DNA of 61,701 nt from Prevotella sp. Lineage in GTDB: Bacteria; Bacteroidota; Bacteroidia; Bacteroidales; Bacteroidaceae. The translations under genes and the position numbers were made by a program. Positions 52,019-61,701 of the stretch are shown here, piece after piece. Every line of letters begins with the position of its first letter. Position 1 is the first letter of the stretch. Under the pieces are notes generated by a model. The model saw only the letters and a list, made by a program, of their open reading frames with translations, was not told where the DNA came from and searched no databases. The stretch lies in the NCBI GenBank assembly GCA_017650905.1, contig JAGCDZ010000024.1, positions 1 to 61,701 on the forward strand, given 5' to 3'.

Positions 52019-54067
52019 TTACTCTGATGATTCTGAAGGTTCTGATGGGGCTTCTTTTTCGTCATTTGCCGCCTTTGCCTCCAGTTCCTTCGCCCTTTCT
52101 TCTGCCATGCGCTCGGCATCGGCTTTCATCTGGGCTTCAAGCAGTTCTTCTGCACGGCTCGTCCAAGGACGCTTGCCAAAGATTCTCTCGACATCCTCAG
52201 CGAAGATAACCTCTCGATCGACGAGTAACTGAGCCAGTTGAGCATGACCGTCCTTATGTTCGGTTAAGATGCGCTTAGCACGCTCGTACTGTTCATTGAT
52301 CATACGCAGCACCTCATCGTCCATGATCTTAGCCGTAGTCTCAGAGTAGGGTCTCTGGAACTGGTATTCCTGATTACTGTAATAGCAGATATTAGGCAGT
52401 TTTTCACTCATACCGGCATAGGCAATCATACCATAGGCCTGTTTGGTAGTACGCTCCAGATCGTTCATGGCACCCGTGGAAATCGTACCGATAAACAGTT
52501 CCTCTGCAGCCCGGCCTCCCAGGAGAGCACACATCTCGTCGAGCATGGCATCCTTGGTCTGGAGCACACGTTCCTCAGGCAGATACCAGGCGGCACCAAG
52601 AGCCTGACCACGAGGTACGATAGACACCTTGACCAATGGGTTGGCAAATTCCGTGAACCAGGAGATAGTGGCGTGACCGGCCTCATGGATGGCGATGCTG
52701 CGTTTCTCCTTCTCGGTCATCACCTTGGTCTTCTTCTCCAAACCGCCGATGATGCGGTCTACTGCATCGAGGAAGTCCTGCTTGCCTACTTTCACACTAT
52801 TATGACGGGCGGCAATCAGGGCTGCTTCATTACAGACATTGGCAATGTCGGCACCCGAGAAACCTGGCGTCTGACGGGCCAGGAAGTCGATATCCACGGT
52901 CTCGTCAATCTTCAGCGGTTTCAGATGCACCATGAAGACTTCTTTACGCTCATTCAGGTCGGGCAGGTCTACGTGAATCTGACGATCGAAACGGCCTGCA
53001 CGGAGCAGGGCAGAGTCGAGCATATCGGCACGGTTGGTGGCAGCCAGAATGATGACACCACTGTTGGTGCCGAAGCCGTCCATCTCCGTGAGCAGGGCAT
53101 TCAACGTGTTCTCACGCTCATCGTTGCCGCCCATCGCCGGGTTCCGGCTACGGGCACGGCCCACGGCATCAATCTCATCGATGAAGATGATGCAAGGCGA
53201 CTTTGCCTTGGCCTGCTGGAAGAGGTCGCGGACACGGCTGGCGCCCACACCGACGAACATCTCCACGAAGTCGGAACCTGACATCGAGAAGAACGGTACA
53301 CCAGCCTCACCGGCTACCGCCTTGGCGAGCAGGGTCTTACCTGTTCCCGGAGGTCCTACGAGCAGGGCTCCCTTGGGAATCTTTCCGCCCAGATCGGTAT
53401 ATTTCTGGGGGTTCTTCAGGAACTCTACGATCTCCTGTATCTCCTGTTTGGCACCAGCCTGACCTGCGACGTCTTTGAAGGTAATGCCTAATTCGCCACC
53501 CTTCTCATACATCTTGGCCTTTGACTTGCCGACACTGAAAACGCTATTACCGCCGACACCGCCTCCCATCCTTCGCATGAGGAACATCATCAGACCGATG
53601 ATGAAAACAAAGGGCAGCACATTATACAATAGCATGTTGAACATCTCGTTCTCGCGACGATTCTCATAACTGTACTGACCTGTGAAGGTCTTGGCGGTCT
53701 TAGCTTCTTCGATGAAACTCTCAACTTGATCTACGGAACCGAACTCCACCTCAATATAAGGCTCGTTACCTGTCTGTTGGGTACCCTGATGGAAGACGTC
53801 GCGGATATGTTCCGGCTTGACGTACATACGCAGGGTGCCCTGACCCTTGTTGACAATGATCTTCGAGGCATAGCCGCGATTCACCATTGCCTTAAACTCT
53901 GAGTAGGTGGCTTGTTTGGCTACACTACTGTTAGAGGGACCTCCGCTGGAAAGATATAGCAAGGCCAAGGCCACTATGGCAATGGCATAAATCCAGTTCA
54001 TATTAAACCGCGGCATGTTCATCTTCGGATCGCCGCCGTTATTGTTGGGCATCTTTTTATTGTCCAT
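52019..54067 (-). CDS. ftsH: ATP-dependent zinc metalloprotease FtsH
   Basis: Membrane-bound AAA+ protease that removes damaged membrane proteins and regulators. The 682 residues contain two membrane segments (about 24-42 and 147-165) around a periplasmic domain, Walker A GPPGTGKT near 239, Walker [14 protein letters not shown], the second region of homology ([18 protein letters not shown]) and the zinc site HEAGH near 463. The C-terminus is acidic and serine-rich, which is typical. The stop codon lies 33 bp before cdsA, and rsfS lies 9 bp upstream. Confidence 0.97.
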
Positions 54068-54076
54068 GATAATCTG

Positions 54077-54436
54077 TTAATCGAGGTTCGGAATATAAGT
54101 CAGTTTGGCATCGTCCCATAAATGTTCGAGGTCGTAATATTCTCGCACATCAGGCAGGAAGATATGGACCAGCACATCAGTATAGTCCATAGCTACCCAT
54201 TGAGCGTTTTCCAATCCTACGACATGAGTGGGCTTTTCCTTGAGTCGTTCACGGGCGAAATCGCTCACTGACTCGGCAATGGCTTCTACCTGAGTAGGAG
54301 AGCTACCCTGACAAATAATGAAATATTTGCAGATGGTGCCTTCAATTTTAGTCAAGTCGGCTACGACGATATCGGAGCCTTTTTTTTCTTGAATTCCTTC
54401 TGTAATGGTTTTAACGAGCTGTTTTGTTTGTTCCAT
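54077..54436 (-). CDS. rsfS: Ribosome silencing factor RsfS
   Basis: Binds ribosomal protein L14 and blocks subunit joining during starvation. The 119 residues match the family, with DIVVADLTKIEGTICKYFIICQG and the conserved VGLENAQWVAMDYTDVLVHIFLPDVREYYDLEHLW. The gene is the first of the rsfS-ftsH-cdsA run. A TATCTTTG box lies 26 bp upstream of the ATG. Confidence 0.95.
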   Translation of the reverse strand: MEQTKQLVKTITEGIQEKKGSDIVVADLTKIEGTICKYFIICQGSSPTQVEAIAESVSDFARERLKEKPTHVVGLENAQWVAMDYTDVLVHIFLPDVREYYDLEHLWDDAKLTYIPNLD

Positions 54437-54461
54437 TAATTATATAATATGTATTTAGATG

Positions 54462-54492
54462 CAAAGATAGTGCAAATTGGGCGAAATGCAAA
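54462..54492 (-). promoter_or_regulatory. rsfS-ftsH-cdsA promoter
   Basis: Minus-strand TTTG (54492-54489) and TATCTTTG (54469-54462), 19-bp spacing. Confidence 0.7.
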
Positions 54493-54524
54493 ATAAATTA
54501 GAATAATTTTTGATTTTGGGCAAA

Positions 54525-54556
54525 AGAAAGAGGCTTCCTCCGTGGAAACCTCTTTC
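54525..54556 (-). terminator. Terminator after tRNA-Gln
   Basis: On the minus strand AGAAAGAGG pairs with CCTCTTTCT, with an inner TTTCCAC...GGAAG stem-loop, followed by a T-rich stretch. Its loop wording resembles the DUF349 terminator at 54733-54765. Confidence 0.75.
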
Positions 54557-54569
54557 TATTGTCTTTCAG

Positions 54570-54640
54570 TTGGGGTACTCGGACTCGAACCAAGAATGAC
54601 AGGACCAGAATCTGTAGTGTTACCATTACACCATACCCCA
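54570..54640 (-). tRNA. tRNA-Gln (anticodon CTG)
   Basis: A 71-nt cloverleaf on the minus strand. The acceptor TGGGGTA pairs with TACCCCA, the anticodon loop reads TTCTGGT with anticodon CTG, and the T-loop contains GGTTCGAGTCC. CCA is not encoded. The innermost pair of the anticodon stem appears to be an A-C mismatch. Confidence 0.93.
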
Positions 54641-54670
54641 ATGAGTCCTTGCAATTTTCATTTGCGGGTG

Positions 54671-54701
54671 CAAAGGTACTACTTTTTCTGGAATTACCAA
54701 A
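54671..54701 (-). promoter_or_regulatory. tRNA-Gln promoter
   Basis: Minus-strand TTTG (54701-54698) and TACCTTTG (54678-54671), 19-bp spacing. Confidence 0.75.
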
Positions 54702-54732
54702 ACTTTTCGGAGAAAAATTTAAAATAGACATC

Positions 54733-54765
54733 AAAAAAAGAGATTCCCATGTGGAAATCTCTTTT
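54733..54765 (-). terminator. Terminator after the DUF349 gene
   Basis: AAAAGAGATT pairs with AATCTCTTTT around a TCCAC-type loop; the minus-strand transcript ends in a T7 run (plus-strand A7 at 54733-54739). Confidence 0.85.
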
Positions 54766-54773
54766 CTCTATTC

Positions 54774-56690
54774 TTATTCTTCTTTATTCTCAGCATCGAT
54801 AGCCTTGATCTTCTCACGGACGAGATTCATATCATCCTTCAGCTTCTGAACCTTGCGGTTCATCTCGTCGATGAGGCTGTTACCCTTCTTCGAGGAAGCA
54901 TTGAGGAAACCGAGGTTGTTTTCATAGGTCTGTACCTCCTGCTTGATAGCCTCATACTGGCGGAACAGACGGGCACGCTCATTATCGAGGGCATTCTCTC
55001 CACGCTCAGCCACTTGTTTCAGACTCTGTTTGAAATTGTTCAGACGACGCTTGGCGACACTGATGTTCAGTTCCTTATAGAGTTTATCGAGCACAGCATG
55101 GTATTCTTCGTAAAGCTTATCCTTCTCCTTGAAGGGCACATGACCAATGGCCTGATATTCCTCGACGAGTTTCTGGACTGTCTCCTGGATATTGTCTCCT
55201 GCCTCCTCGGCCACAGCCTTGAGCTTTTCAACAATCTCGCGCTTCTTTTCAAGGTTCTCTCGCTCTTCACCACGTTGTCCGGCTCCAGCGGCATTACGGG
55301 CATCGAAGAACTTGTTGCAGGCACCGAGGAATTCCTCCCAAAGTTGGTCACCGAGTTTCTTGGGTACCATGCCGATGGTCTTCCACTCCTTCTGGAGGGC
55401 AATGAGTTTGTCGCCGGTAGCTTTCCAATCTGTAGAGTCCTGAAGAGCCTTGGCTTTCTCAATCAGTGCACGTTTCTTTTCTGCATTATCTTTGAAAGTT
55501 TCCTTCAAGGTCTTGAAATAGGTCGCCTTCCTGCCGAAGAAGTCGTCGCAGGCAGCGCGGAAACGCTCGAAGATCTTCACGTTCATCTTCTGGGGAGCGA
55601 AACCGATGGTCTTCCACTCCGACTGTATGTCGATGATCTCCTTGGTATGCTTCTCCCAGTCACCGCTGCCCTTGTTTTCCTGAGCGGCGATGGCCTCTAC
55701 CTTCTCGCAGAGTTCAGTCTTGCGGGCCAGATTCTCCTCTTCCCTGGCTCTAACGCCCTCAAAGTGTTGCTGATGACGTTTGTTGATAACGGTTGAGGCC
55801 GCTTTGAAACGGTTCCAGATTTCCTCACGCTGCTCTTTAGCCACAGGACCGATTTCACGATATTCGGCATGCAACTTCTGGAGCTGATGGAAGGCACTGA
55901 TGATATCGGGCTCGTCGGCTAATTTCTCTGCAGCTTCACAGAGCTTGGTCTTCAACCCGTAATTCTTCTTGAAATCATATTCGCGGGCTTCGCTATTCAG
56001 TTTGAGCAGATCGTAGAACTGTTCAACATAGAGCTGATAGTTGCGCCACAACTCATTGGCCTTCTCGGCTGGGACATTCTTGATCTCACGCCATTCGGCC
56101 TGAAGGGCCTTGAACTCCTGATAGGCTTTGTTGGCTTCCTCCGGAGAGGTAATCATACTCTTGATTTTCTCGATAATTGCGAGTTTCTTCTCCAGGTTTA
56201 CCTGCTTTTCAGCTTCCTGTTCCTTGAAGAGTTTGGCACGTTTCTCCTTGATGATGCCCATTTCAGCCTTAAACACTTCTTCATCCTCATCGGGTGTGAT
56301 CTGATAAGCATCCGGATCACCGCCACCATCGATATAGGCCTTCAGACTGGCTTCGCGCTCTGCAATGTGCAGCTTGTAGAAAGAGGTCTTCAGGTAATCG
56401 ATCTCATCCTTTTGGGGAGCCTCGTCACCATGGGCAATCTCCTTGATGCGGTCGAGCACCTCCTTCTTGGTCTCATAGACCTTACGGGGCTGCTCTTCTT
56501 CTGCAGCGGGAGCCTCTTCTTCTGCAGCAGGAGTCACTTCTTCGGTAGCAGGAGCCACTTCTTCAATGACAGGTGCCTCCTCTTCTGCAACGGGAGCCAC
56601 TTCTTGGGTTTCTACTTCAGGAACAGCAGTTTCCTGGATAACTTCTTCTTTTACCTCTTGCTTGAGGATGTTGTCTTGAGAGTCCATCAT
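54774..56690 (-). CDS. DUF349-repeat protein
   Basis: A 638-residue cytoplasmic protein with an acidic N-terminal region (about 10-70) made of EEAPV/APATEE-type repeats, then a helical body in which a DUF349 unit recurs about five times; each unit includes phrases such as EWREIKNVPAEKANELWRNY, EYREIGPVAKEQREEIWNRF, EWKTIGFAPQKMNVKIFERF, EWKTIGMVPKKLGDQLWEEF and EYQAIGHVPFKEKDKLYEEY. The function of DUF349 is not established. It has its own promoter and terminator, and lies downstream of corA on the same strand. Confidence 0.92.
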   Translation of the reverse strand: MMDSQDNILKQEVKEEVIQETAVPEVETQEVAPVAEEEAPVIEEVAPATEEVTPAAEEEAPAAEEEQPRKVYETKKEVLDRIKEIAHGDEAPQKDEIDYLKTSFYKLHIAEREASLKAYIDGGGDPDAYQITPDEDEEVFKAEMGIIKEKRAKLFKEQEAEKQVNLEKKLAIIEKIKSMITSPEEANKAYQEFKALQAEWREIKNVPAEKANELWRNYQLYVEQFYDLLKLNSEAREYDFKKNYGLKTKLCEAAEKLADEPDIISAFHQLQKLHAEYREIGPVAKEQREEIWNRFKAASTVINKRHQQHFEGVRAREEENLARKTELCEKVEAIAAQENKGSGDWEKHTKEIIDIQSEWKTIGFAPQKMNVKIFERFRAACDDFFGRKATYFKTLKETFKDNAEKKRALIEKAKALQDSTDWKATGDKLIALQKEWKTIGMVPKKLGDQLWEEFLGACNKFFDARNAAGAGQRGEERENLEKKREIVEKLKAVAEEAGDNIQETVQKLVEEYQAIGHVPFKEKDKLYEEYHAVLDKLYKELNISVAKRRLNNFKQSLKQVAERGENALDNERARLFRQYEAIKQEVQTYENNLGFLNASSKKGNSLIDEMNRKVQKLKDDMNLVREKIKAIDAENKEE

Positions 56691-56738
56691 TTAACTTTTT
56701 TAGTTACTGACTTGATTTGTTCAAACGCTATTTGGCGT

Positions 56739-56761
56739 CAAAGGTACTAAAAAATTGTGAA
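56739..56761 (-). promoter_or_regulatory. DUF349 gene promoter, TTCAC-type
   Basis: Minus-strand TACCTTTG (56746-56739) with TTCAC (56761-56757) ending 10 bp upstream and no TTTG at the -33 distance. Confidence 0.6.
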
Positions 56762-56772
56762 TTGTAAGTACC

Positions 56773-56822
56773 GAATAGTGAATAGTTGTTACTTGTTTTG
56801 TTTTTTTAACTATTCACTATTC
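56773..56822. repeat. 15-bp inverted repeat made of TTCACTA-type units
   Basis: GAATAGTGAATAGTT (56773-56787) is the exact complement of AACTATTCACTATTC (56808-56822), with a T-rich 20-nt loop. It lies between the corA stop and the DUF349 promoter. Confidence 0.8.
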
Positions 56823-56831
56823 ACTTTTAAT

Positions 56832-57758
56832 TTAAACGAGTCTCTTATGACGGAAGACCCACCAGCAAATGCCTGATACGCAGATGGAGAGGATGATGGC
56901 GATGATGAATCCCCAGGGTTTGGACTCCATACCATTGATGAGGTTCATGCCAAACATCGAAGTAATCAGCGTCGGAATCATCATAATGATGGTGACGGAT
57001 GTCAGGGTACGCATCACGGTATTCATATTATTGTTGATGATACTCTGGTAGGTATCCATCGTCGATTCCAAGATGTTGGAGTAGATGAGCGTGGTTTCAC
57101 GGGCCTGCGTCATCTCGATGTTGACGTCCTCAATCAGGTCTGCATCCAATTCGTCAATCTGCAGTTTGAACTTCAGTTTCGACAACAGCGTCTCGTTGCC
57201 TCGAATGGAAGTCTGGAAGTAGGTGAGCGAGTCCTGAAGACGGCTAAGGCCAATCAGGCTCTCATTGTTCACTTCTTTATCGAGGTTGCGCTTGGCCTTG
57301 TCGACGAGCATCGATATCTGCTTCAGACGTTTCAGGTACCAGACGGCACTACTGAGGAACAAACGGAAGATCATGTCAACATGGTCGGTGAAACCCTCGC
57401 CTCGTTTCTGTTGGAACGAGACAAAGTCGATCATCATGTTCGTCTCATAGAAACAGACGGTGATGGTGACGTCGCGTTTATGGATGATACCTAAGGGCAC
57501 TGTGGTATATGGTGTCCTCGACCGTATCTCCTTCACGTAGGGGATACGGAGGATAATGAGCATCCATCCGTCGTCGTACTCATAACGGGCACGCTCGTCG
57601 GTATCGCTGATGTCCGACATAAAATAGTCGGGGATATTGAACTTCTCTTCGAGTTCGCGCTGGTCTTCTTCAGTGGGGCATGTCACCTGAATCCAGCAAT
57701 TGGGCTGCCACTCTGTGAGTTGGGCCAGTCCGCCTTGGGTGTTCCAGAAAGTCTTCAT
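56832..57758 (-). CDS. corA: CorA-type magnesium/divalent cation transporter
   Basis: Pentameric inner-membrane channel for Mg2+ or another divalent cation. The 308 residues consist of a cytoplasmic alpha/beta domain (about 1-150), a long helical stalk (about 155-245) and two C-terminal membrane segments (about 247-270 and 282-303). The signature GMN is present in TSMFGMNLING, at the end of the first membrane segment, and the C-terminus is basic (RHKRLV). The gene has a leader of about 135 nt with an acidic upstream ORF and a possible pseudoknot next to the start codon, which suggests post-transcriptional control, perhaps by Mg2+. Confidence 0.94.
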   Translation of the reverse strand: MKTFWNTQGGLAQLTEWQPNCWIQVTCPTEEDQRELEEKFNIPDYFMSDISDTDERARYEYDDGWMLIILRIPYVKEIRSRTPYTTVPLGIIHKRDVTITVCFYETNMMIDFVSFQQKRGEGFTDHVDMIFRLFLSSAVWYLKRLKQISMLVDKAKRNLDKEVNNESLIGLSRLQDSLTYFQTSIRGNETLLSKLKFKLQIDELDADLIEDVNIEMTQARETTLIYSNILESTMDTYQSIINNNMNTVMRTLTSVTIIMMIPTLITSMFGMNLINGMESKPWGFIIAIILSICVSGICWWVFRHKRLV

Positions 57759-57760
57759 TG

Positions 57761-57820
57761 TGCTAATCCTTTTTTCGTTTGAAATGGTTTTAGCGGCAAA
57801 GGGATTAGCAGCCTTGCCAC
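57761..57820 (-). promoter_or_regulatory. Possible H-type pseudoknot in the corA leader
   Basis: Reading the minus strand, GTGGCAA (57820-57814) can pair with TTGCCGC (57799-57793), 7 bp with one G-T pair. Inside that loop TGCTAATCC (57810-57802) is the exact complement of GGATTAGCA (57769-57761), 9 bp. The two helices interlock with connecting segments of 3, 2 and 23 nt, dimensions that suit an H-type pseudoknot. The second helix ends two unpaired bases before the corA ATG, so folding would hinder initiation. No T-tract follows, so a translational switch is more likely than a terminator. Confidence 0.5.
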
Positions 57821-57833
57821 TCGTCCCCCGCCT

Positions 57834-57869
57834 TTACGAATAGTAATTTTCCGCCGGGTAATCGTCCAT
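57834..57869 (-). CDS. Upstream ORF in the corA leader, 11 residues (MDDYPAENYYS)
   Basis: ATG at 57869, TAA at 57836-57834, in the corA leader. Three of the first seven residues are acidic and one is proline. Nascent peptides of that composition destabilise ribosomes at low Mg2+ in E. coli, where the MgtL leader peptide uses this to control a magnesium transporter. Translation of this frame is not demonstrated; the ATG has no Shine-Dalgarno site, as is usual in this genome. Confidence 0.4.
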   Translation of the reverse strand: MDDYPAENYYS

Positions 57870-57899
57870 AATTTTGTTAATGTTTAAATTTATCGCCTG

Positions 57900-57930
57900 C
57901 AAAGGTAAGAAAAAAAATCCGCAGTTACAA
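57900..57930 (-). promoter_or_regulatory. corA promoter
   Basis: Minus-strand TTG (57930-57928) and TACCTTTG (57907-57900), 20-bp spacing. The -33 box lies in the loop of the pepD terminator. Confidence 0.7.
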
Positions 57931-57949
57931 GCAAACTGCGGATTTTTTT
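57911..57949. terminator. pepD terminator overlapping the corA promoter
   Basis: AAAAAAATCCGCAGTT (57911-57926) is the exact complement of AACTGCGGATTTTTTT (57934-57949), giving a 9-bp core plus A/T arms and a 7-nt loop. The minus-strand transcript of pepD ends in the T7 run. Confidence 0.92.
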
Positions 57950-57954
57950 CAAAT

Positions 57955-59412
57955 TTATTTCTCAGGAATGTCCTCGAGAGCTTTCTTAAGCAACTGCCAG
58001 AAGGGTTCGACAGTAGCGATGAGGGCGCGCTCCATGGTGGTGTGAGGCGACTTCATCGTGGGACCAAACGATACAACATCGAGGTGAGGATACTTGCCCA
58101 GAATAATCGAGCACTCCAGACCTGCGTGGTCAACCTGGATGATACCATCGGCATTGAAAAGTTCCTTATATTCCTTCAACAACAGGTGCAGGATCTCTGA
58201 CTCAGGGTTGGGATCCCAGCCGCCATACGAACCAGCTGTCTCTACTTTCATACCTGCCATATTGAAGCAGCTTTCGAGGGTCTTCACGATATAGTCCTTC
58301 ATGTCCTCACGACTACTGCGGGCGAGGATCTTCAGCATAGACTTACCTTCACCGATGTTGATGATAGCGAGGTTGCTGGAGGTCTCTACTACACTGGGGT
58401 AGGAGGGGATCATACGTACCACACCGTCGTGACAGCCGTAAATGGCATTGATGAGGTTGTCCTGGATTTCCTCGGGAACTTCCATCTTTGGTGTCTCGAC
58501 ATCCTCGCAGATTACTTCGATACCACTTTCGATACCTTTGTACTCGTCGGTGAAGTCCTCAAGCCAGTCTGCAGCGAGTTCCTTCAGGGCTGCTACGTTC
58601 TCCTTCGGTAAGGTCAGCACGGCCTCTGCTTTGAAAGGAATGGCGTTACGCATGTTGCCACCCTGCCAAGAAGCCAGACGAGCCTCGCACTCCTCGATAG
58701 CCTCACGTACCAGACGAACGAGCAGTTTGTTGGCATTGCCACGACCTTCGTGGATCTCCAGACCAGAGTGTCCGCCACGTAGACCTTTGACGGTCACCTT
58801 GACAGCAGCATCTTCGGGATCGGTCTCCACCTCTTTGTAATCGAGCGTTGCGGTGATATTGATACCTCCAGCAGAGCCGATGACGAACTTGCCCCAATGC
58901 TCAGAGTCGAGATTCAGAAGGATATCTCCATTTAATTCTCCTGCAGGCAGACCATTGGCACCAAACATACCCGTTTCTTCATCAGCTGTAATCAGGGCTT
59001 CAATAGGACCATGCTTCAGCGTCTTGTCCTCCATGATGGCCATGATGGAAGCCACGCCTAAGCCGTTGTCAGCGCCAAGGGTAGTTCCCTTGGCCTTTAC
59101 CCATTCGCCGTCGATCCAGGGTTGGATGGGGTCGGTTTCGAAGTTGTGGGTACTCTCGGGTGTCTTCTGTGGCACCATATCCATGTGGGCCTGAAGGATG
59201 ACGCCCTTCTTGTTTTCCATGCCTGCAGAGGCTGGCTTGCGCATGACAATGTTGTCTGCAGGATCCTTGAATGCTTCCACACCAGCCTGCTTGGCAAAGT
59301 CGAGCAGGAAATTCTGTACTTTCTCGAGATGTCCACTTGGACGTGGAACTTGTGTCAGTGCATAAAAATTCTTCCAGATGCACACTGGGTTCAGATTTTT
59401 GATTTCACTCAT
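57955..59412 (-). CDS. pepD: Aminoacyl-histidine dipeptidase (PepD, M20 family)
   Basis: Metal-dependent dipeptidase of 485 residues. The ATG at 59412 (MSEIKNLNPVCIWKNF) is used because the longer frame covers the end of the flippase gene. Motifs of the M20C family are present: LQAHMDMVPQK with a zinc histidine near 80, GADNGLGVA with the bridging aspartate, and ADEETGMFGA with the catalytic glutamate pair. The lid domain includes GGHSGLEIHEGRGNANKLL. The start is 2 bp after the stop of the flippase-like gene, so the two are co-transcribed. Confidence 0.95.
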   Translation of the reverse strand: MSEIKNLNPVCIWKNFYALTQVPRPSGHLEKVQNFLLDFAKQAGVEAFKDPADNIVMRKPASAGMENKKGVILQAHMDMVPQKTPESTHNFETDPIQPWIDGEWVKAKGTTLGADNGLGVASIMAIMEDKTLKHGPIEALITADEETGMFGANGLPAGELNGDILLNLDSEHWGKFVIGSAGGINITATLDYKEVETDPEDAAVKVTVKGLRGGHSGLEIHEGRGNANKLLVRLVREAIEECEARLASWQGGNMRNAIPFKAEAVLTLPKENVAALKELAADWLEDFTDEYKGIESGIEVICEDVETPKMEVPEEIQDNLINAIYGCHDGVVRMIPSYPSVVETSSNLAIINIGEGKSMLKILARSSREDMKDYIVKTLESCFNMAGMKVETAGSYGGWDPNPESEILHLLLKEYKELFNADGIIQVDHAGLECSIILGKYPHLDVVSFGPTMKSPHTTMERALIATVEPFWQLLKKALEDIPEK

Positions 59413-59414
59413 AG

Positions 59415-60461
59415 TTATGTTGTTTGAGGGTTTAAACGTTTCGTAAATAAGAGGGCTGCCCAAGCATAGATACCGAGGACAATCACCAGGAGCGTCTGTA
59501 CGGAATGTACGATGAGTACGAACCAAAGCGCCTGTTCATCGGCCACGCCATAGAGAATCAGCATGGTCTTGATGGCGAAATGCCAGGGACCTGCACCATT
59601 GGGCGTGGGTACGATGACCGCGAAGTTGGCCACCACAAACGATACCAGAGCACAACCGATACCTAAATGTTCTGTGAAGTCGAAGCAGAAGAATGTCAGG
59701 TAGTAGTGCAGGAAGTACATCACCCAGATGCCGATGGAGAAAAACAGGTAGAGTGGCAGGTTTTTGACCCCCTTCAGGGAGAGTACGCCCTCCCAGATGC
59801 CACTCAATGTCATCTTTACCTTATTATATATAGAGAATTTCCTCAATAATAGATGCAGCAGAATCAGGACAGCGATACCACAGATAGCGGTTACAAGCCA
59901 GCCCGTCAGCGAGAAACCTTCGAGGATGCGGTCGAATGACGTGCCTGTTTTCTTGAAGAATGTGCCAAAGACGCTCATTTCTATCAACAGGATAATACCT
60001 GAATAGAACATCACAATCAGTGTATCGACGGCCCGTTCTGTCACTACCGTGCCCAGTGCTTTGCTGAACGACACCCCGTCGTATCGTTTCAAAATGGCAC
60101 AACGGGTGAACTCGCCGATGCGCGGAATTACCAGACTGGCAGCATAAGAGATGAATACGGCATGTATGCAGGTAGCATTGCGGGCTCGGATTTTCTTGCC
60201 GGAAGACGGTTGCTTGACTGTGTTTGGCGACAGGTCGTCGATGGGATCTAGTGTCTGTTTCCATCGCCAGCCACGGAACATCTGTGCCAGAATGCCGAAG
60301 GGAAACGACAACAACATCCAGGTCCAGTTCATCTCTTCCGTCAGAACACGACTGATGGTCGAGAGATCTTCTCCACGGTACATCCACCACAGAATCGCTC
60401 CGCCAAGCAGGAAAGGCAGGACGATTTTGGCAATGTTTCCGAGTATGCTTTTCTGTTCCAT
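59415..60461 (-). CDS. Flippase-like / lysylphosphatidylglycerol-synthase-type membrane protein
   Basis: A 348-residue integral-membrane protein with about eight hydrophobic segments, related to the UPF0104/AglD-like family annotated as LPG synthase transmembrane region. Landmarks are RGWRWKQTLDP after the second segment, SLVIPRIGEFTRCAILKRYDGVSFSKALGTVVTERAVD and VVPTPNGAGPWHFAIKTML. It lacks the C-terminal catalytic domain of MprF. The ATG at 60461 lies five bases after the promoter box, so the transcript should be leaderless; the longer frame would read through that promoter. Confidence 0.88.
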   Translation of the reverse strand: MEQKSILGNIAKIVLPFLLGGAILWWMYRGEDLSTISRVLTEEMNWTWMLLSFPFGILAQMFRGWRWKQTLDPIDDLSPNTVKQPSSGKKIRARNATCIHAVFISYAASLVIPRIGEFTRCAILKRYDGVSFSKALGTVVTERAVDTLIVMFYSGIILLIEMSVFGTFFKKTGTSFDRILEGFSLTGWLVTAICGIAVLILLHLLLRKFSIYNKVKMTLSGIWEGVLSLKGVKNLPLYLFFSIGIWVMYFLHYYLTFFCFDFTEHLGIGCALVSFVVANFAVIVPTPNGAGPWHFAIKTMLILYGVADEQALWFVLIVHSVQTLLVIVLGIYAWAALLFTKRLNPQTT

Positions 60462-60466
60462 TGGTG

Positions 60467-60489
60467 CAAAGGTACAAATTATAAATGAA
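60467..60489 (-). promoter_or_regulatory. Promoter of the flippase-pepD unit, TTCAT-type and leaderless
   Basis: Minus-strand TACCTTTG (60474-60467) with TTCAT (60489-60485) ending 10 bp upstream. Five bases separate the box from the ATG. Confidence 0.65.
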
Positions 60490-60516
60490 AAAATGAAAAA
60501 ATGAAAGAATGAAATT
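60485..60516 (-). repeat. 8-bp tandem repeat (TTTTTCAT on the minus strand)
   Basis: Four 8-bp units, ATGAAAAA twice, ATGAAAGA and ATGAAATT on the plus strand, next to the flippase promoter. Confidence 0.8.
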
Positions 60517-60561
60517 GACCTATAGCGTTCTTTTTCATTAATAATTGCAATTTGGATGCTT

Positions 60562-60593
60562 TTCATTTCTTCATTTCTTCATTTTTTCATTTT
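60562..60593 (+). repeat. 8-bp tandem repeat (TTCATTTC/TTCATTTT)
   Basis: Four units in 8-bp phase, two TTCATTTC and two TTCATTTT, next to the ksgA promoter and inverted relative to the array at 60485-60516. Confidence 0.85.
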
Positions 60594-60608
60594 TATTATT
60601 TATCTTTG
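60586..60608 (+). promoter_or_regulatory. ksgA promoter, TTCAT-type and nearly leaderless
   Basis: TATCTTTG at 60601-60608 with TTCAT (60586-60590) ending 10 bp upstream. Seven bases separate the box from the ATG at 60616. Confidence 0.65.
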
Positions 60609-60615
60609 CAGCCAA

Positions 60616-61410
60616 ATGAAACAAGTAAGACCGAAAAAGAATCTTGGACAGCATTTTCTGACCGATCTGAGCATCGCCAAGCGAATCGCTGACACAGTGG
60701 ATGAGCCATTTGCTGAGTTGCCTGTACTCGAGGTGGGACCTGGCATGGGCGTGATGACTCAGTATCTGGTGGAGAAACCCCGTCCGTTGAAAGTCGTGGA
60801 GATCGACCGCGAGTCGGTGGCTTATCTCCGCGAGAACTTTCCTCGTCTTAATAATAATATAATAGGTGGCGACTTCCTCCGCATGGATCTGCATGAGGTG
60901 TTCGAAGGTCAGCAATTCATTTTGACGGGCAATTATCCCTACGATATCTCCTCACAGATATTCTTCAAGATGCTCGATAACAAGGACCTCATTCCTTGTT
61001 GCACTGGTATGATCCAGCATGAGGTGGCTGTCCGCATGGCATCGCAACCGGGTAATAAGCAGTATGGCATTCTCTCCGTTCTGATTCAGGCCTGGTATAA
61101 TGTGGAATATCTCTTTACGGTTGAACCTTCCGTTTTCAATCCACCTCCTAAAGTGCAGAGTGCTGTTATCCGAATGACTCGCAATGCTGTTACCGACTTG
61201 GGTTGCGACGAACAACTTTTCCGTCGTGTTGTCAAGGCCACCTTTAACCAGCGCCGAAAAATGCTCCGTGTCTCCTTACGACAGATTTTCGATGCAGCCC
61301 ATCCTGCTCCCGAAGGTTTTTTCGAGGATTCGATGATGACACGCCGGCCAGAACAATTGTCGATTCCGGAGTTTGTGGAATTGACAAACAAGGTTGCAGC
61401 TGTCTTTTAG
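60616..61410 (+). CDS. ksgA: 16S rRNA (adenine(1518)-N(6)/adenine(1519)-N(6))-dimethyltransferase
   Basis: Dimethylates two adjacent adenines near the 3' end of 16S rRNA, a late step in 30S assembly. The ATG at 60616 (MKQVRPKKNLGQHFL) is the start, because the longer frame runs through the promoter. The 264 residues carry the SAM-binding motif VLEVGPGMGVMT, the acidic VVEIDRE and the catalytic motif NYPYDISSQ (the usual second asparagine is aspartate), then the C-terminal helical domain with FNPPPKVQSAVIRM. The mRNA should have a leader of only a few bases. Confidence 0.96.
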   Translation: MKQVRPKKNLGQHFLTDLSIAKRIADTVDEPFAELPVLEVGPGMGVMTQYLVEKPRPLKVVEIDRESVAYLRENFPRLNNNIIGGDFLRMDLHEVFEGQQFILTGNYPYDISSQIFFKMLDNKDLIPCCTGMIQHEVAVRMASQPGNKQYGILSVLIQAWYNVEYLFTVEPSVFNPPPKVQSAVIRMTRNAVTDLGCDEQLFRRVVKATFNQRRKMLRVSLRQIFDAAHPAPEGFFEDSMMTRRPEQLSIPEFVELTNKVAAVF

Positions 61411-61701
61411 GCCGTTTTCGCACACAAATAGTGTGTGTTCGCGCACAACAAGTTGATTTACATCAAAAGAAATGCGGTTTTTATGCAAAAAGAGGTGGTA
61501 ATCCATTGCGGATTGCAAAAATCGCCGTACCTTTGCATCGTCAAAAGAAAAAAGATAATATTCAATAGAATAATTAGTTAAGGTAATAAAAGATTCGTTT
61601 CATTGTTAGTTAGAGTTAGTTAGTAGTTAATAGTTAGTAATTAGTTTTGGTTTTAAGTTGATTTAATAGGTATTACAGTGGTAATAAAGATTTGTTAGAA
61701 A
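61411..61701. other. Intergenic region and leader of a gene beyond the window
   Basis: About 290 bp after ksgA. It includes a weak CACACA/TGTGTG hairpin near 61421-61438, a promoter (TTG at 61506-61508 and TACCTTTG at 61528-61535, 19-bp spacing) and at least 160 nt of AT-rich leader with TTAG-rich direct repeats (61605-61655) and GTTAAGGTAATA at 61576-61587. No reading frame of note begins before the window ends. Confidence 0.6.
61506..61535 (+). promoter_or_regulatory. Promoter of the gene beyond the window
   Basis: TTG (61506-61508) and TACCTTTG (61528-61535), 19-bp spacing, facing the right edge. Confidence 0.65.

Follow-up and report, generated by a model that had tools for sequence, protein, structure and literature searches.

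A short acidic reading frame and two mutually exclusive RNA helices in corA leaders of Bacteroidia suggest a Mg2+-responsive translational attenuator

The stretch of DNA analysed here (the window; 61,701 nt) comes from a rumen Prevotella and carries, on its minus strand, a corA leader flanked by a peptidase-like gene on one side and by corA on the other. The corA product matches its Pfam family with 165.4 bits (cut-off 27) and contains the GMN motif as FGMN; as it scores below the cut-off of the NCBIfam equivalog TIGR00383 (88.5 vs 200.75 bits), its substrate is presumed. No relatives of this CorA were found on the viral contigs searched. A promoter had been proposed at the head of the leader by the first-pass annotation, and its box, TACCTTTG, is indeed there; the assignment is a match of sequence only, to TAnnTTTG, which we take to be the Bacteroidota −7 box consensus, and boxes resembling it, read by eye, precede many homologous leaders. 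An inverted repeat resembling a terminator, predicted on either strand, stops right at this box, and comparable repeats are seen by eye upstream of loci L003, L010 and L019. Elsewhere in the window, a minus-strand tRNA gene (54570-54640) scores above its Rfam cut-off (53.4 vs 29 bits).

Within the leader lies the 11-codon upstream open reading frame (uORF) MDDYPAENYYS noted by the same annotation, whose stop is only 75 nt from the corA AUG and is followed by three pairing segments, the second of which can partner either the first or the third (Table 1). At the core of the second pairing, TGCTAATCC (57810-57802) is, as had been reported, the exact complement of GGATTAGCA (57769-57761) over 9 bp; the strands GTGGCAA and TTGCCGC of a local stem around arm 2 and the connecting segments of 3, 2 and 23 nt of the resulting pseudoknot are also present as described. 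The hexamer GGACGA had been remarked upon because it occurs twice, which it does (57867-57862 and 57826-57821). Its first copy makes up codons 2-3 of the uORF and is kept in relatives; among the first 30 loci, many have another sequence in place of the second, so that the pair is without meaning and the duplication was rejected as a signal.

Table 1. Features of the corA locus in the window, and mgtE loci carrying the same element.
Feature	Position	Strand	Description
corA	56832..57758	minus	308 aa; CorA-like Mg2+ transporter; ATG at 57758; GMN motif; PF01544, E 2.3e-48
Arm 3, GAAAAAAGGATTAGCA	57761..57776	minus	ends 2 nt before corA AUG; with arm 2, predicted dG −14.2, 13 bp
Local stem, Prevotella type	57793..57820	minus	57820-57814 / 57799-57793; with arm 2:arm 3, a predicted H-type pseudoknot
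Arm 2, GCTGCTAATCCCTTTGCC	57795..57812	minus	partner is arm 1 or arm 3
Arm 1, GGCGGGGGACGAGTGGC	57816..57832	minus	adjoins uORF stop; with arm 2, predicted dG −21.4, 15 bp
uORF	57834..57869	minus	11 codons plus TAA; MDDYPAENYYS
Promoter box TACCTTTG	57900..57907	minus	matches Bacteroidota −7 box TAnnTTTG; sequence match only
Terminator-like inverted repeat	57910..57950	minus (found on plus too)	17 pairs, T-run; between peptidase-like gene and corA leader
mgtE loci with the element (order)			L356, L366, L386, L392, L396, L397, L409, L429

Homologous corA leaders were gathered from the genus, family, order and phylum, together with 80 named Prevotella-type loci (the best 80 of 548, some identical to genus loci). 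CorA was found in 130/150, 90/121, 88/119 and 139/198 genomes of the sets searched, and the loci examined, chiefly best-scoring and complete ones, numbered 128 for the genus, 59 for the family, 29 for the order and 29 for the phylum. A uORF starting with MD[DEG] and located 40-260 nt upstream of corA is found at 125/128 genus, 54/59 family and 21/29 order loci, at 77/80 named loci and at 7/29 loci of the phylum sample, compared to 16/1605 mononucleotide-shuffled upstream regions and 4/325 reverse strands; conservation so far above these controls argues that the feature of the corA leader is not due to chance. The seven loci of the phylum sample (L239-L244 and L247; for example, MDDYYSEMLN) belong to one genus of the same class and a different order. 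At L004, L293 and L301 the available upstream sequence is too short, and at L325 none of the element was found. Two corA genes of the same genus (L179 and L180) are without both the uORF and the helices, the former starting 42 nt after the end of another reading frame.

Examination of the short ORF's coding sequence among relatives, a check suggested together with the original observation, indicates that it is kept as an acidic reading frame across genus, family and order loci. Among 267 unique leaders, the uORF has 11 codons in 165 and 8-27 codons in the others; 228 of the 239 unique genus, family and named uORF leaders begin with MDDY, the remaining 11 reading MIDD, MDDD, MDDS or MDDP. As the uORF search demanded ATG(ATA)GA[CT]G and the codon table demanded MDDY, counts at codons 2-4 of the 228 MDDY leaders are conditional, with the amino acids set by these requirements: codon 3 is GAT in 172 and GAC in 56, and codon 4 is TAT in 124 and TAC in 104. 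An acidic residue, D or E, occupies position 7 in 186 of these leaders, position 5 varies between P, H, Y and L, and the conserved start has at most one proline, replaced by H or Y in many relatives. Insertions of whole codons preserve the frame in MIDDY (L016), MDDDY (L176/L177) and MDDSY (L185/L193); outside the family, members of the order can have E in place of D3 (MDEGP, MDEVP) and use differing proline codons. There is also a constraint at the nucleotide level for which the peptide model does not account, in that codon 6 (57854-57852 in the window) is NCG in 227 of the 228 MDDY leaders, although its amino acid may be A, P, S or T, and GAC serves as codon 2 in 227 (GAA and GAG being excluded by the search).

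The layout of the RNA was analysed in the 265 unique leaders whose uORF is followed by 40 nt or more. In 244 of these (92%, compared to 50% with the middle shuffled), at least 4 nt of arm 2 are common to both helices and, because of this overlap, helices 1:2 and 2:3 would be mutually exclusive; in 245, a gap of 0-5 nt separates the start-codon helix from the AUG. When sought without restriction between the uORF ATG and arm 2, the upstream partner of arm 2 starts close to the uORF stop (−12 to +10 nt) in 211 leaders, further upstream, inside the uORF, in 51 and beyond +10 in 3, lying at or beyond uORF nucleotide 28 in 228; a search for arm 1 restricted to −9 to +17 nt of the stop succeeds in 265/265, a result that is partly true by construction. 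With an assumed footprint of ~10 nt past the stop, a terminating ribosome would overlap arm 1 in most leaders, and a ribosome at codon 5 would not. Some spacers between arms 2 and 3 contain short repeats such as CAATTGTCAATTATCAATTGTCAATT (L003, L013, L018, L028 and others); an inverted repeat located downstream of corA in the window, at ~56768-56825, looks like repeats found in some of these spacers.

The sequences of the arms change completely between lineages, with complementarity kept: arm 2/arm 3 read GCUAAUCC/GGAUUAGC in the window, GUCUGAAUCUUU/AAAGAUUCAGAC in L189 and GGUUGUUUUCCUC/GAGGAAAACAGCC in L176. This co-evolution was assessed by an alignment-free test that compares the duplex energy of a leader's own arms with that obtained after exchanging partners across species. 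When 37 genera contributed one leader each, arm 1:arm 2 gave −15.6 own vs −9.5 swapped (z −12.6, 0/5000 permutations) and arm 2:arm 3 gave −11.9 vs −7.7 (z −10.9, 0/5000 permutations), with six control pairings ranging from z −2.4 to 1.0; the strongest of these, arm 1 with the corA coding start, was slightly better than swapped (40/5000). A set of 98 k-mer representatives yielded −16.8 vs −11.8 for arm 1:arm 2 and −13.9 vs −8.8 for arm 2:arm 3 (both 0/2000 permutations), with four control pairings null, and a 40-leader test that included four leaders from one genus agrees with the strict 37-genus one. Moreover, the best helix at the AUG has an energy of −14.1 kcal/mol in leaders with the uORF (n=284), and of −5.7 (family/genus, n=7), −6.5 (order, n=6) and −9.3 kcal/mol (phylum, n=21) in those without it. 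A further pairing, between codons 5-6 of the uORF and arm 1 (CACGC/GCGUG, CCGGC/GCCGG), would make an erm-like four-segment switch and appeared good by eye; it was rejected upon failing the swap test, with z 0.1 in the 37 genera and 809/2000 permutations as good among the 98 representatives, codons 4-9 giving z 0.1 with arm 1 and z 0.0 with arm 2 in the 37-genus test. Altogether, we consider the anatomy, conservation and co-evolution of this leader element to be practically certain.

Compensatory change among homologous leaders had been proposed by the first-pass annotation as the touchstone for both of its helices, and is strong for the one at the start codon and weak for the local stem. The search for the latter covered the 91 leaders whose arms are exactly GCUAAUCC...GGAUUAGC, of which 86 have a GGCAAG/CUUGCC-like stem around arm 2; its co-variation amounts to −14.1 own vs −13.0 kcal/mol swapped (86 leaders, 0/2000 permutations). 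In the window and in these 86 of 91 leaders, a stem whose loop pairs downstream of its 3' strand could form, as in an H-type pseudoknot, which we interpret as the form that the OFF state takes in Prevotella-type leaders. Across the 86 leaders, 22-141 nt separate the cores of arms 2 and 3 (32 in the window, including the 23-nt third loop), a spacing unlike that of a compact ligand pocket. Judged from the sequences, the widely conserved core would instead consist of the two mutually exclusive helices beside the uORF stop, and would not be a metal-binding pseudoknot; of the original proposal of a Mg2+ or other divalent-ion switch, the acidic uORF and the RNA structure at the start codon both stand, with Mg2+ as the probable signal.

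The folding energy of the leader in the window is unremarkable by itself (z −1.6; 13/200 shuffles fold equally well). Folding with a masked ribosome, an equilibrium calculation by a program without pseudoknots and hence given little weight either way, gave a pairing of the AUG region of 0.607 when the leader was free, 0.583 with a ribosome at codon 5 and 0.652 with one at the stop; in the last case 67 of the 199 leaders gained more than 0.1 and 10 showed a decrease, an effect of the expected sign, small, and absent in the leader of the window (0.484 vs 0.479).

The element is also found in front of a second Mg2+ importer gene. Among 295 order genomes, the pattern MD[DE]GPYH has 7 matches, all of which lie 94-104 nt upstream of corA (5) or mgtE (2); Pfam confirms two of the corA loci (L389 and L390) and both mgtE loci, two others (L391 and L393) coincide with L077 and L079, which had been recovered through CorA similarity, and L394 was assigned by sequence resemblance. 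In 121 family genomes, an H/Y-type MDDY pattern, which cannot match the CCG type of the window, has 36 matches, 35 of them just upstream of corA by position and one inside a gene that appears NlpC/P60-like by eye (L227); an MDDYH pattern has 14 matches in 198 order genomes, 10 upstream of corA and 4 where no corA was found. A scan of 88 mgtE loci, not all of which include the gene start, detected the element at seven, so that it is usually absent from mgtE; together with L392 from the pattern search, this makes eight. The mgtE uORFs are acidic and proline-containing (MEEDPYR, MKDDPYS, MDDGPYH, MDDVP, MDEGPY) and are followed in all eight leaders by two predicted overlapping helices that have 6-12 nt in common and end 0-8 nt before the AUG; seven of the downstream genes are MgtE by Pfam, and L429 lies upstream of an MgtE match. 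By eye, the arms of mgtE leaders (CUGUAAGG/CCUUACAG/UGUAAGGAG) bear a likeness to the arms in certain corA leaders (L076, L079), as though a cassette had passed from one gene to the other. CorA and MgtE are different Pfam families, and the presence of the element before two unrelated families of Mg2+ importers is the main reason for naming Mg2+ as the signal.

These features suggest the following mechanism. The leader mRNA would present a short uORF with an acidic start (MDDYPAE...), whose stop lies beside arm 1. Being made before arm 2, a free arm 1 would capture it, leaving arm 3 open and allowing CorA to be made; a ribosome that completes the uORF would cover arm 1, so that arm 2 pairs with arm 3 at the AUG and no CorA is produced. 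At low intracellular Mg2+, ribosomes would become unstable on the acidic peptide start and drop off before arm 1, turning corA on. Four points are our inference: translation of the uORF, loss of ribosomes at its acidic codons, Mg2+ being the signal, and which state is ON and which OFF. Counting against the mechanism are the single proline, at most, of the conserved start, arm 2 partners that begin inside the uORF (51/265) or beyond +10 (3/265), the small effect of a masked ribosome, the constraint at codon 6, the control pairing of arm 1 with the corA coding start, and the usual absence of the element from mgtE. That the element is a translational attenuator governed by the uORF appears very likely; that it is specifically a leader-peptide attenuator of corA, switched ON at low Mg2+ through loss of ribosomes at the acidic start, is our favoured and reasonably probable reading.

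The same anatomy could also serve ribosomes that arrest on MDDY(P/H) rather than drop off, or could respond to a translational stress other than Mg2+, with an ABC-F factor, EF-P, charged tRNA or an antibiotic as the trigger and a ribosome arrested at the start freeing arm 1 to turn corA on. Arrest and drop-off would leave the RNA in one and the same state, as in 228/265 leaders the partner of arm 2 does not start before uORF nucleotide 28; EttA is described as acting on early acidic motifs in the part of PMC11282234 available, and a pause specific to that codon might explain the strict NCG at codon 6. Position 5 is variable (P, H, Y, L), however, unlike in a precise arrest motif, and the sharing of the element by two unrelated Mg2+ transporter families points to Mg2+, making this explanation rather unlikely. 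The polarity might instead be the opposite, with translation of the uORF opening the RNA or allowing reinitiation at corA, so that the uORF activates. Although the 75 nt between the two genes of the window would suit such coupling and loss of the mgtQ start codon in Salmonella lowered mgtB translation (PMC8092293, in the portion available), arm 1 mostly begins at the stop (211/265), so completed translation should favour closing of helix 2:3, and the core distances of 22-141 nt in the 86 Prevotella-type leaders are unlike coupled reinitiation; we regard an activating uORF as improbable.

Direct sensing of Mg2+ by a metal-binding RNA, a pseudoknot riboswitch to which the uORF would be incidental and for which the pseudoknot idea of the first-pass annotation leaves room, is very improbable: although an H-type pseudoknot is possible at the start codon in the window and in 86/91 leaders with the same arms, the start of the uORF is kept across families in which the arm sequences are completely changed, and there is no Rfam match at gathering in 20 loci. 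Finally, the conserved start of the uORF could be an untranslated signal acting at the RNA level, such as an initiation enhancer or a protein site, as the near-invariance of codon 2 (GAC) and codon 6 (NCG) in 227 of 228 MDDY leaders might suggest; yet in-frame codon insertions, the replacement of D by E at codon 3, synonymous changes in codons 3 and 4 and the occurrence of stops within 8-27 codons render this hardly conceivable.

Among known regulatory leaders, ermC-type attenuators combine a leader peptide with alternative hairpins by which the start of the main gene is masked or exposed, as it would be in the Bacteroidia element, and differ in their antibiotic-induced arrest and four-segment RNA. 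The M-box riboswitch also occurs in leaders of Mg2+ transporter genes; unlike it, the Bacteroidia element has a uORF, and the initial opinion that this is not an M-box agrees with Rfam, which gives no M-box match at gathering in 20 loci or among 16 matches at E≤5 in 54000-61701 of the window. No Rfam family reaches gathering in the loci of these 20 leaders, and the matches that fall on the leader of the window or on the preceding repeat are below the cut-offs (Thr_leader, E 0.11 and 0.32; STnc40, E 0.49). In the mgtL-mgtA system, the transporter is a P-type ATPase, differing from CorA.

The nearest system in working is Salmonella mgtQ, an 8-codon uORF between mgtC and mgtB that has Asp2 and Glu5 and controls MgtB at the level of translation by way of alternative stem-loops (PMC8092293; this and the following comparisons refer to the available portions of the sources). 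Like mgtQ, the Bacteroidia element has a very short uORF with early Asp/Glu codons before the gene of a Mg2+ transporter, followed by mutually exclusive stem-loops, one of which, as predicted from co-evolution, would hide the start region (PMC8092293). The acidic codons of mgtQ raise expression of the transporter (PMC8092293), and their counterparts in Bacteroidia would do so by analogy. Unlike the Bacteroidia element, mgtQ has four stem regions, with region 1 within the uORF, and a Shine-Dalgarno site, and lies inside an operon (PMC8092293); the Bacteroidia element has three arms and a position in the 5' leader, with arm 1 usually starting from the uORF stop. Although arm 1 reaches into the uORF in 51/265 leaders, pairing of the uORF start with the arms is without co-evolution, and no first pairing segment within the uORF was found by the 37-genus swap test.

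The corL-corA system of E. coli and Salmonella likewise has a uORF in the corA leader and two alternative RNA structures, and corA expression is inverse to uORF translation, via Rho (PMC11552253). Unlike the Bacteroidia element, with its MDD uORF and start-codon helix, corL has a UUG start in E. coli, fewer acidic/proline residues and Rho-dependent termination (PMC11552253). Early acidic motifs, including that of mgtL, cause stalling or drop-off, and the EPDP of E. coli mgtL destabilises ribosomes at low Mg2+; mgtL-mgtA resembles the Bacteroidia element in its acidic start and differs from it in having Rho transcription termination as output (PMC11282234). Acidic uORFs on Mg2+ transporter genes of enterobacteria act in the way proposed here for corA, which speaks for the model (PMC8092293, PMC11552253, PMC11282234). 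A B. thetaiotaomicron transcriptome study mentions short ORFs in long leaders and, in the portion available, does not name a Bacteroidia corA uORF (PMC7366714). No description of such a uORF was found in the open-access literature searched, and the text of that literature did not contain MDDYHA, MDDYPA, MDDYYA, MDDSNPR or MDDYYSE. The Bacteroidia element shares mgtQ-like logic; given its different sequence, RNA layout and lineage, it is a member of none of the mgtQ, corL and mgtL systems, and of none of the others compared, and is apparently undescribed.

Members of the Bacteroidota are abundant in the gut and rumen and rarely use Shine-Dalgarno sites. No account of how they sense Mg2+ was found in the searchable literature, and a conserved peptide-plus-RNA switch on corA and mgtE is a testable candidate for this function, the model predicting which codons and base pairs matter. 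On balance, we lean towards the view that Bacteroidia possess an ancient and widespread nascent-peptide Mg2+ sensor of their own on corA and mgtE, of an origin independent of mgtL, corL and mgtQ. The recurrence of a uORF with an RNA switch in Bacteroidia, and on an unrelated importer, suggests the translating ribosome as a magnesium gauge; if the model is true, bacteria would have come more than once to gauge Mg2+ by the instability of ribosomes on acidic starts, and ribosome-based sensing would be carried from enterobacteria into a second phylum.

A further observation concerns the neighbourhood of mgtE, which at L361, L362, L363, L369 and L372 comes after a reading frame with an RPEQLSV-like C-terminus that appears RsmA-like by eye; in the window, an RsmA-like gene is found at 60556-61410, separated from corA by two genes.
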